Origin: Odoribacter splanchnicus DSM 20712
GTDB lineage: Bacteria > Bacteroidota > Bacteroidia > Bacteroidales > Marinifilaceae
Direction: 5' to 3'
Assembly (NCBI RefSeq): GCF_000190535.1
Contig: NC_015160.1
Location: 248,001-312,000 of the forward strand
DNA: 64,000 nt
The notes under the pieces are model-generated. The model did not search any database. It was given only the letters and a program-made list of their open reading frames with translations, and was not told the origin of the DNA. The number at the start of each line of letters is the position of its first letter. Positions within the stretch are counted from its first letter, which is position 1. A program made the position numbers and the translations under genes. Below are positions 9,130 through 12,246 of this stretch, piece by piece.

Positions 9130-9300
9130 AAGCTAAAGGCTATAAGCTATAAGCTAAAAGCTGATTGCTATGAGTTTGAAAAGCCAGAGCTTTAAGATTA
9201 AAACTCCAGGCTATACTGGGACAAAGATAATTGAAAAACTTTATTTTTATAGCTTTTCACCTTTCGCTTTTCGCTTATAGCCTATAGCTTATCGCCTTTC
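9130..9300. repeat. AGCTATAAGC-type intergenic repeat cluster with inverted copies
   Basis: Between gldE and the ssb 3' exon, 9130-9162 contains overlapping units of AAGCTATAAGCTA, and 9249-9292 contains the same motif in reverse complement (TTATAGCCTATAGCTTAT). The two clusters could fold together around about 90 bases. No gene is present here. It may act as a transcript-end structure between ssb and gldE. Confidence 0.45.
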
Positions 9301-9304
9301 AGCC

Positions 9305-9453
9305 TTAAAATGGCAGATCGTCGTTATCGTCCGGTGTATTCATCGGAGGAGTAGCGGTCGTTGAAGTGCTACTTGAAACCGACGGCGTATAAGATCTGGG
9401 AGCATTTCCTGTGGCCTCACCGTCTTGTCTGGAAGATAACATTTGCATATTAT
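9305..9453 (-). CDS. ssb: ssb, 3' exon (C-terminal tail of single-stranded DNA-binding protein)
   Basis: Read on the minus strand from 9453, joined to the last base of the 5' exon, this encodes D-NMQMLSSRQDGEATGN and onward to the acidic tip NDDLPF and a TAA at 9307-9305. The tail is the disordered linker plus the DDDLPF tip that recruits other replication and repair proteins. It has no start of its own and is separated from the OB-fold exon by the group II intron at 9454-11948. Exact joining keeps the frame (298 + 149 = 447 bases). Confidence 0.92.
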
Positions 9454-9514
9454 GTAGGCTCGGTAAACAACGCCTTTCCGCTTTACAGCGGTAGGTTTTC
9501 GTTTATCTGCCCCC

Positions 9515-9548
9515 GAACCGTACTTACACGTCTCCATGTATACGGCTC
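9515..9548 (-). ncRNA. group II intron domain V
   Basis: The 34-nt minus-strand element opens GAGCCGTATAC and closes GTACGGTTC, forming the conserved hairpin with catalytic AGC-type triad region and bulge. It lies just 3' of the intron protein stop and about 60 nt before the 3' splice site, the normal place. Confidence 0.92.
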
Positions 9549-9566
9549 TCCATCTGTAACATCATT

Positions 9567-11375
9567 TTACTTATCACAGCTCTGGATTTTTGCGTTACAC
9601 TCCGCACATACGACCAAAGTCTTTCTGTGCATATAGAGCATTTTGCGTTCCCAGTCATTTTTACCTTTTAACTCTTTGAGAGTGCGGACATGGTGCATTA
9701 CCACTTCTCCGTGCTTGCCACATAGTTCGCACGTTTTTGTTGTAAGCCTTTCTATCAAACTTAACGATGGTGTTTTGAACATATACGGCAGATTGTCACT
9801 TGGGGCTGTTTCACAATCCGTTTTACGGGCGTAACCCTCATTGTAGAATACCCTGTACTTGGTTTCTCCTCCCTTGTTTACAAAAGGCACGGCAAAGAGA
9901 TTGTCCTTGCGGTATGTTTCAATGACTTTTCTCACTGACATATTCAGCTTTTGAGCAAGAGTTTTGTACATGGAGAACTTCATAATACAGCCGAAAGAGC
10001 GTCCCAAAGCCGATGCATTGTTTGCTATTGAGTAATAGTTGTAGAACCCTCGTATTTCGGTATTAAACTGAGATACAATCTCGTGCGCTTCATTGTCAAT
10101 CATATAAGTCCTGCCTTTTGACACCCATGTTTCCTTGCCGCGTTTGGTGACAACTTTCATGGCTTCGAGGCTGAGCAGTTTATTCTTGATTACTTCTCTT
10201 GAAACGTGCAATATCACGTTCCCGTTGAAGTATCTGCGCACTGTTCCGTTACTGTTTCTCTTTGTGGCATAGTCTTTACGGACATATATTTCGTAACCCA
10301 AAAATTTTGCGCTGTCTTGTGCATTTGTAATCAAAGTCTTTTCCTGTGACATCTCCAGCCTTAACTTTTCCTGCATAAACTTGGTGATGTCAGCTTTGAT
10401 TGTCTCACATTCGTTTTTCGTTCCGATAACCCCGATTAGAAAATCATCGGCGTAGCGCAGATATCTCAGTCTGCGAAAATTTCTGTCCATATCGTTGCCA
10501 CTTGGCATTGTTAGTATCCGCTTCTGCTTTTCGTGCAGTTCTTCTACCATCCTTGTTCTTACGTTTACATCCTCTACTTCATTTATCCTACGTTTTAGGT
10601 AGTGTACTCTGCTGTTGAGTTTGCAAATATCCTTGTTGCGGCTTCTTACTGTCCCTTTATTGAATTTGTTGGCATATTCATTCATGTACTTATCGAACTT
10701 GTCAAGGTATATATTTGCCAAAACAGGGCTTATGATACCACCTTGCGGTGTCCCTGAATAAGTCTTGTTGAATTGCCACTCTTCCATGTACCCTGCATTG
10801 AGGAATTTCCGTATCAGACGAAGAAATCTGTCATCTGCTATTCTGCCTTTCATTATTTCTATCAGCACATCATGGTCTATGTTGTCAAAGAAGCCTTTTA
10901 TATCTCCCTCGATGAACCATTTTGCACCGTTGAAATTATTTTGTAGACTTTTCAGTGCTGTGTGGCAGCTTCTGTTTGGTCTGAAGCCGTGCGATGTCCA
11001 CTCAAAGTGTCCCTCATATATAGCTTCAAGCACCATTCTTACTGCCTCTTGAACCAATTTGTCTTCAAAAGACGGTATTCCTAACGGACGCATCTTCCCA
11101 TTCTTTTTCGGAATGTAAATTCTCTTTGCAGGATTGGGACTATAAGTCTCATCCTTTATACTCTCTATGAGTTTGTTTATCCTATCAATGCTCATTTCAT
11201 CCTCTGTTTTGCCATCAGTGCCGGGTGTCATGTTTCCCGGCTTTGCATACATACGTTGGTAGGCGGCAAAGAACATCTGTTCATTGAATAGAATACGGTA
11301 GAGCCTTTCGTATTTATACTCAGGCTCGTTGCTGTGTCCAGCTAAAATGTTTAATACTTGCTCTGGATTTCTCAT
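9567..11375 (-). CDS. ltrA: group II intron-encoded reverse transcriptase/maturase with HNH endonuclease
   Basis: A 602-residue protein. RT blocks run from about 55 to 345: 'PKKNGKMRPLGIPSFEDKLVQ' blocks near 90-108, 'SHGFRPNRSCHTAL' near 128-141, 'GTPQGGIISPVLANIYL' near 208-224, and the active site YADD at 308-311. A maturase X domain follows ('FNTEIRGFYNYYSIA'), then a C-terminal zinc/HNH endonuclease (CxxC 'CELCGKHG', 'MHHVRTLKEL', 'CAECNAK'). All parts look intact, so the intron is probably still able to splice and retrohome. It is encoded inside the intron on the same strand as ssb. Confidence 0.95.
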   Translation of the reverse strand: MRNPEQVLNILAGHSNEPEYKYERLYRILFNEQMFFAAYQRMYAKPGNMTPGTDGKTEDEMSIDRINKLIESIKDETYSPNPAKRIYIPKKNGKMRPLGIPSFEDKLVQEAVRMVLEAIYEGHFEWTSHGFRPNRSCHTALKSLQNNFNGAKWFIEGDIKGFFDNIDHDVLIEIMKGRIADDRFLRLIRKFLNAGYMEEWQFNKTYSGTPQGGIISPVLANIYLDKFDKYMNEYANKFNKGTVRSRNKDICKLNSRVHYLKRRINEVEDVNVRTRMVEELHEKQKRILTMPSGNDMDRNFRRLRYLRYADDFLIGVIGTKNECETIKADITKFMQEKLRLEMSQEKTLITNAQDSAKFLGYEIYVRKDYATKRNSNGTVRRYFNGNVILHVSREVIKNKLLSLEAMKVVTKRGKETWVSKGRTYMIDNEAHEIVSQFNTEIRGFYNYYSIANNASALGRSFGCIMKFSMYKTLAQKLNMSVRKVIETYRKDNLFAVPFVNKGGETKYRVFYNEGYARKTDCETAPSDNLPYMFKTPSLSLIERLTTKTCELCGKHGEVVMHHVRTLKELKGKNDWERKMLYMHRKTLVVCAECNAKIQSCDK

Positions 11376-11948
11376 ACGTCTCTCACGTTTTCCGTTGTTC
11401 GTATTAAAGTTACAGACTACTTCCCTTCGCCATGTACAAGGCTTTCCCTTGCTCGGACTACTACGGAAGTTCCGTTACCATATCGGATATTCAAAAGCTT
11501 TCTTTATAGCTGTTTATTCCAGCGTTCCGACTTAGGTAATCCCCAGTTAGTTCTCTTAATAACTATTAGCACGGCATACTGTCGGATGCGACTTTCGTTC
11601 TTGTCCGCTTATTGCGGCTGTGTCATAGTCGGTTCTTTATGCTCTGCACTAACGCACAAAATAGGCAGAGTACTATGAAACAACGTATGTATAATAGTCT
11701 TCCGTTGTTGCAAGATTTGGTACCACTGAACTATCGTTCAACCAATCAAGGCTTCATCCTTATGTATGCCTTTTCGTCTTGCCCCTCAGTCGCCACTTGA
11801 CTATTAGTGGACTTGGAGCTTTAATCAGTATGCTACACTCCCCATCGGGTTTCCCCTTTGGATAAACTGATTGACGATAGGATTATATCGAACCCAATCC
11901 TAACTTCTTGCTAAAGAAGTATTTATTAAGCGACCATTCTGGGCGCAC

Positions 11949-12246
11949 CGGCATAAATTTCGGTCGTATATCTTTTTACTCCATTCTGGTCGTCCCAGGA
12001 ACGGGTACGAATCCGTCCTTCGATATAAAGACGCATTCCTTTTTTGACATACTTTTCGACGATTTCAGCCAATCCTCTCCATAATACGATGTTATGCCAC
12101 TCGGTCTGATCGATGTTTTCGCCGTTTTTGTTTTTATATCTTTCCGTAGTTGCCAGACGGAGATTGGCAACCGCTACTCCGCCTTCCAGGTATCTGACTT
12201 CCGGATCAGCACCTACATTTCCAATTAAAATTACCTTATTTACCAT
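11949..12246 (-). CDS. ssb: ssb, 5' exon (OB-fold of single-stranded DNA-binding protein)
   Basis: From the ATG at 12246 this encodes [20 protein letters not shown] and the rest of the SSB OB-fold ('[13 protein letters not shown]', '[20 protein letters not shown]', '[12 protein letters not shown]') up to 'TTEIYA' and the first base of the next codon. If the intron is not spliced, translation runs seven residues into it (GAPRMVA) and stops, giving a 106-residue SSB without the DDDLPF tip. Spliced, the product is 148 residues, a normal length. Located upstream of gldE on the same strand. Confidence 0.93.

Follow-up and report, generated by a model that had tools for sequence, protein, structure and literature searches.

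A group II intron in the only detectable ssb gene of Odoribacter splanchnicus, probably acquired by an off-target jump from an integrase gene

The stretch of DNA analysed here (the window) comprises 64,000 nucleotides of the Odoribacter splanchnicus DSM 20712 genome (NC_015160.1, positions 248,001 to 312,000 of the forward strand) and carries an ssb gene, encoding single-stranded DNA-binding protein, that is divided into two exons by a group II intron (Table 1). Exon 1 matches the SSB family PF00436 with an E-value of 6.2e-38 over profile positions 1-99 of 104, and the exons joined in silico give a 148-residue SSB that contains IYADNMQM and ends in DDLPF. Without splicing, the frame stops as GAPRMVA, followed by two stop codons, after 106 residues. 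The first bases of the intron, GTGCG, fit GUGYG and the last, TAC, fit AY. A second copy in this genome (L003), identical over its 2,495 nt and differently flanked, begins and ends with the same bases as the ssb copy, and ~97% identical copies in other genomes likewise share both ends. Since the same 2,495 bases recur with other flanks, the intron boundaries are fixed independently of the continuity of the protein. A previous reading of this DNA from the sequence only had placed a complete group II intron in ssb and had held that its exact removal restores IYADNMQM and a 148-residue SSB; the lengths and ends of the exons and the intron are confirmed here, and translation of the joined exons bears out the restored protein. 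Between ssb and gldE, at window positions 9144-9288, lie AT-rich repeats, among them GCTATAGGCTATAAGC and AGCTTATAGCTTATAGC, together with inverted counterparts.

Table 1 Features of the interrupted ssb locus, in window positions.
Feature	Position	Strand	Description
ssb exon 1	11949..12246	minus	298 nt; residues 1-99 and first base of codon 100; PF00436
ssb exon 2	9305..9453	minus	149 nt; ends DDNDDLPF in the joined-exon translation; E 7.8e-25 with the 148-aa query
Group II intron	9454..11948	minus	2,495 nt, GTGCG...CCTAC; both ends common to other copies
Unspliced reading, 106-aa truncated SSB	11926..12246	minus	ends GAPRMVA
Intron-encoded protein (IEP)	9567..11375	minus	602 aa; Pfam RVT_1, Intron_maturas2, AI2M-like_HNH; NCBIfam TIGR04416
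Domain V	9515..9548	minus	RF00029 match and fold
Likely branch-point A, domain VI	9460	minus	7 nt upstream of the 3' end; left unpaired by both the fold and the Rfam alignment
EBS2 (AAATCT), proposed	11713..11718	minus	covaries with exon -12..-7 over seven introns
EBS1 (GTGCGT), proposed	11652..11657	minus	covaries with exon -6..-1 over seven introns; register from alignment to other introns
EBS3 (T), tentative	11559	minus	pairs with base +1 of exon 2

The RNA and protein components of the intron are complete. Positions 9454-9550 match the Rfam family RF00029 (Intron_gpII) with 55.1 bits, against a gathering score of 40, and an E-value of 4.4e-08. The final 107 nt of the intron fold into domain V, a hairpin of 34 nt, and domain VI, in which one A is left unpaired; this fold has a z-score of -4.79, with none of 200 shuffled sequences folding equally well. 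The frame of the 602-residue intron-encoded protein is unbroken and passes, narrowly, the cut-off of the NCBIfam model group_II_RT_mat (TIGR04416; 303.6 vs. 300 bits). A separate reverse-transcriptase-like stretch of the same genome (L008, C1:939499-939915) has 28% identity to residues 86-234 of this protein.

The position of the intron raises the question as to whether the cell has another source of SSB. The genome is a single contig of 4,392,288 bp (99.99% complete), and the available part of a description of the O. splanchnicus type strain (PMC3111987) reports one replicon and no extrachromosomal elements. The sequence-only reading had held that SSB supply depends on splicing and had proposed a genome-wide search for a second ssb; none is found in the whole genome, either with the SSB family (E<=1e-3) or with the 148-residue SSB as query, which matches just its own two exons even at E<=10. 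When eight genomes of the genus were searched, ssb matches were obtained in seven (this genome and six others), the one without a match being a genome that is 67% complete. Each of the six congeners has exactly one ssb match, which in five covers all 148 residues uninterrupted in one frame and in the sixth runs from residue 47 onward. gldE adjoins ssb in all six congener loci, which include one short locus (L038), and rng and an HU-like gene are each nearby in five. The interrupted ssb sits in the same gene neighbourhood and is thereby the orthologous locus. The acidic C-terminal tip encoded by exon 2 is strongly conserved, with D141, D144, D145, L146, P147 and F148 invariant in an alignment of 21 chosen relatives, and exon 2 itself is without decay. 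The sole ssb, the congener neighbourhood and the invariant tip all speak, as far as sequence goes, for the proposed dependence of SSB supply on splicing. In the protein collection, an intact 148-residue SSB with 99% identity (P0001) stands for a cluster of 532 member sequences and matches TIGR00621 over positions 3-165 of 165, compared with just 3-101 for the unspliced form. This suggests that the interrupted allele is an exception within the species, with the qualification that counts of interrupted and intact sequences are inseparable in a collection clustered at 90%. Among the best 120 SSB matches listed from this 90%-clustered collection, the 106-residue form is absent. Two proteins from short contigs (P0122 and P0123) are identical to this SSB until approximately residue 100 and then continue as unrelated sequence near the same point, and these could be other insertions or misassemblies.

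Three copies of the intron are present in this genome, residing in ssb, in a tyrosine recombinase gene and in a SusC/RagA-type gene. The recombinase copy (L003) is identical over all 2,495 nt and interrupts its host, which has Phage_integrase in its exon 1, after LGHKNIATTQIYA. The third copy (C1:2250587-2253083; L006, L043) follows FQIYA in the SusC/RagA-type gene, where the protein frame has been broken by an insertion of four bases, with changes next to it, and by two deletions of one base each; an intact maturase frame is present in the other two copies. SusD- and FecR-type genes adjoin the SusC-gene copy. Among the 19 loci returned from the named genome collection, 11 are 96-98% relatives of the intron protein, with Bacteroides faecalis, Phocaeicola plebeius, P. 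coprocola, P. faecicola and Prevotella bivia as hosts. When the six source genomes of L012, L013, L015, L016, L018 and L030 were searched with a pattern, 12 copies turned up in five of them; of 201 genomes in the family to which the P. plebeius genome belongs, two had matches, the P. plebeius genome itself and a new one (L057). All 13 copies in other genomes (L045-L057) are preceded in the same codon phase by (T/I)TQ(I/V)YA (11 TTQIYA, one ITQIYA and one TTQVYA), the Y of which we take to be the catalytic nucleophile of the tyrosine recombinase. In each of the 13, the pre-intron frame scores over the Phage_integrase cut-off, and all of these matches stop at position 166 of the 172-position profile; being cut at this point, behind the catalytic-tyrosine motif, an unspliced integrase would retain nearly the whole domain. 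The pre-intron frames of L053 and L055 are open for merely 71 and 69 residues, so these two integrases may be damaged. The intron was found in no genome but this one in a 393-genome sample of the order (up to 3 mismatches in 45 bases), searches of plasmid and phage collections gave no match, and in a scan of viral contigs four stretches fit the pattern and none was confirmed as the intron. The usual home of the intron is a tyrosine-recombinase gene, at one fixed point of the integrase domain, and the copies at several sites imply past mobility. The integrase introns of Bacteroides, Phocaeicola and Prevotella bivia have the same ends and codon phase as the ssb intron as well as a 96-98% identical IEP, but their host is an integrase gene rather than a core replication gene.

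The TEIYA of SSB corresponds to the integrase motif, and the ssb DNA AAATTTATGC is also present at the SusC site. EBS1 and EBS2 were proposed from covariation of the intron with the upstream exon. A blind scan of intron positions 5-530 in seven introns gave the best covarying starts at 287-291 for exon positions -6 to -1 and at 226-229 for exon positions -12 to -7. Permutation tests on these introns, for which the EBS segments had been chosen by eye beforehand, yielded reassignments as good as the observed one in 21 (narrow segment) and 63 (wider segment) of 5040 cases for EBS1, and in 4 and 49 of 5040 for EBS2. The seven include L022, which starts with CTGCG and fits poorly; with L022 left out, the numbers are 2/720 each for EBS1 and EBS2 (narrow) and 9/720 and 5/720, respectively (wide). 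An earlier permutation with five introns had supported EBS2 (2/120) and was not significant for EBS1 (20/120), and of three more introns then sought, L058 and L060 were usable and L059 was without a clear 5' end. L024, L026 and L027 (IEP 51-53%) were excluded from the comparison of exons and EBS segments, and L029 is without both intron ends. In the first fixed-column scan for EBS1, a conserved, target-independent segment tied with the present one (21 each). GGCATA, at intron position 182, had also been considered as EBS1 and was dropped, as it forms a stem whose partner changes along with it. The tentative EBS3 is T with A or G at exon position +1 in 14 introns and A with T at +1 in L023; of two further introns, L058 agrees and L060 disagrees. 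The introns L020-L023, L058 and L060, with proteins ~56-61% identical, have other targets and matching changes in the proposed EBS1 and EBS2 segments, and from these joint changes the lineage seems to have changed homes several times.

With the proposed elements, the ssb site pairs at 10 of 13 positions (EBS2 5/6, EBS1 4/6, EBS3 1/1), and ten comparison sites (nine occupied by this intron, one by its relative L018) pair at 10-12 of 13, the score of L012 being approximate since the EBS2 word itself differs there. The EBS1 value at ssb is the lowest among the compared sites, tied with L013 and L018. Six empty congener ssb sites score 9-12 by the same count. In the window minus the intron, 680 of 122,984 positions pair at 10 or more, so that pairing alone is far from sufficient; further specificity presumably comes from other determinants, for example contacts with the protein. 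A tighter pattern, ARATHTAYGCNNR, has 67 occurrences in the genome vs. 34 for a reversed control, and the occupied sites are three of the 67. In the proposed pairing, a G of EBS1 faces the third base of the Tyr codon, so that TAT and TAC would both be accepted, and both are found at integrase homes.

We consider it very likely that an integrase-homing intron made an off-target jump into the sole ssb through the likeness of the two sites, and that splicing restores the 148-residue SSB. An intron targeting the TTQIYA codons at the end of the integrase catalytic domain would recently have moved by retrotransposition into the single ssb of this O. splanchnicus strain, as the TEIYA codons of ssb offer a look-alike of its IBS2/IBS1/IBS3 target. 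The intron RNA, together with its own RT/maturase, which two unbroken copies encode, would then splice out of the ssb pre-mRNA, and its removal would restore the full-length protein. The full identity of the ssb and integrase copies points to a recent jump between them in either direction, and the location of the 13 other copies, all in integrases, suggests the integrase copy as the source. Working splicing is the best explanation for a cultured strain with one ssb and a conserved tip encoded beyond the intron. We infer the direction and recency of the jump, splicing in the cell and an adequate supply of SSB; the dependence of full-length SSB on splicing is well supported by the sequence. Published work bears on both sides of this reading: in the part of PMC6003770 available, group II introns are described as able to lower host gene expression, which counts against it, and the available text of PMC2882425 argues, for thermophilic introns, that insertion at well-pairing sites allows later splicing.

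The sequence-only reading had further suggested that the unspliced transcript might give a second, functionally different SSB. The 106-residue frame without the tip does exist, and it keeps residues 1-99, scores well over the cut-off of the ssb model (149.5 vs. 53.95 bits) and, apparently by chance, retains the invariant M104. It substitutes the end of the last OB strand, and this strand is modelled, with low confidence, at 91-103 in the short form vs. 91-105 in the full-length relative P0001 (models from 22 and 21 sequences, mean pLDDT 68 and 63, respectively). The functional part of the suggestion is unsupported: the seven extra residues are read from the first bases of the intron, and the integrase copy has the near-identical tail SAPRMVA, so there is no sign of selection for them. 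In addition, the insertion appears recent, given the identical copy, and is in none of the congeners examined. That spliced full-length and unspliced tip-less SSB are made in useful proportion, with splicing as a switch, is therefore unlikely, and a sole ssb working as a splicing-controlled two-product gene, in which intron folding and the supply of maturase would fix the proportion of the two forms, seems quite improbable. The weak EBS1 pairing at ssb (4/6) could also mean that the intron splices too poorly and that the cell makes do with the truncated SSB lacking the tip, the more so as the 106-residue frame spans nearly the whole OB-fold profile (1-99 of 104). The tip of E. coli SSB is needed for life, and here the tip is invariant in the 21 aligned relatives, exon 2 is undecayed, and some integrase sites have equal pairing totals, which makes life on the short form decidedly improbable. 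Finally, a genome with three near-identical intron copies might have had the repeated intron wrongly joined into ssb during assembly, and an intact, 99% identical SSB does exist in public data; however, the two junctions are exact to the base and the site agrees with the pairing of the intron itself, which is not expected from a misjoin, and the genome is a single contig, so that such an artefact is highly improbable.

Bacterial housekeeping genes interrupted by group II introns are already known but rare, and the ssb case adds one; the accessible part of PMC6003770 calls those in essential genes rare and intriguing. The introns of Geobacillus kaustophilus recA and of a bacterial heat-shock operon, cited in the available text of PMC4424553, likewise lie in housekeeping genes and differ in having a host gene other than ssb. 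TeI4h of Thermosynechococcus elongatus, as far as the available text of PMC2882425 describes it, lies in an essential tRNA-Ile gene and is unlike the ssb intron in that its host is an RNA gene of a thermophilic cyanobacterium. Ll.LtrB, in the relaxase gene of Lactococcus lactis, is comparable in that it retrohomes and has as its home a gene for DNA processing on a mobile element; it is a different intron in a different home gene, and its effect on host expression, according to the part of PMC6003770 available, has been measured. A group II intron in Odoribacter or in a bacterial ssb was not found in the literature covered, a search that left most subscription papers outside its scope and does not show the case to be unreported. 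In a gut commensal available in culture, the interrupted ssb is a natural example of a core replication gene whose only detectable copy holds a mobile ribozyme, and the probable donor copy, the logic of the off-target insertion and relatives free of the intron can all be seen. It makes testable what level of splicing is needed for such an insertion to be tolerated in a core gene, and whether such insertions persist. The integrase home also illustrates how an intron that recognizes codons conserved within a single protein family may end up in an unrelated gene with a similar short codon string.
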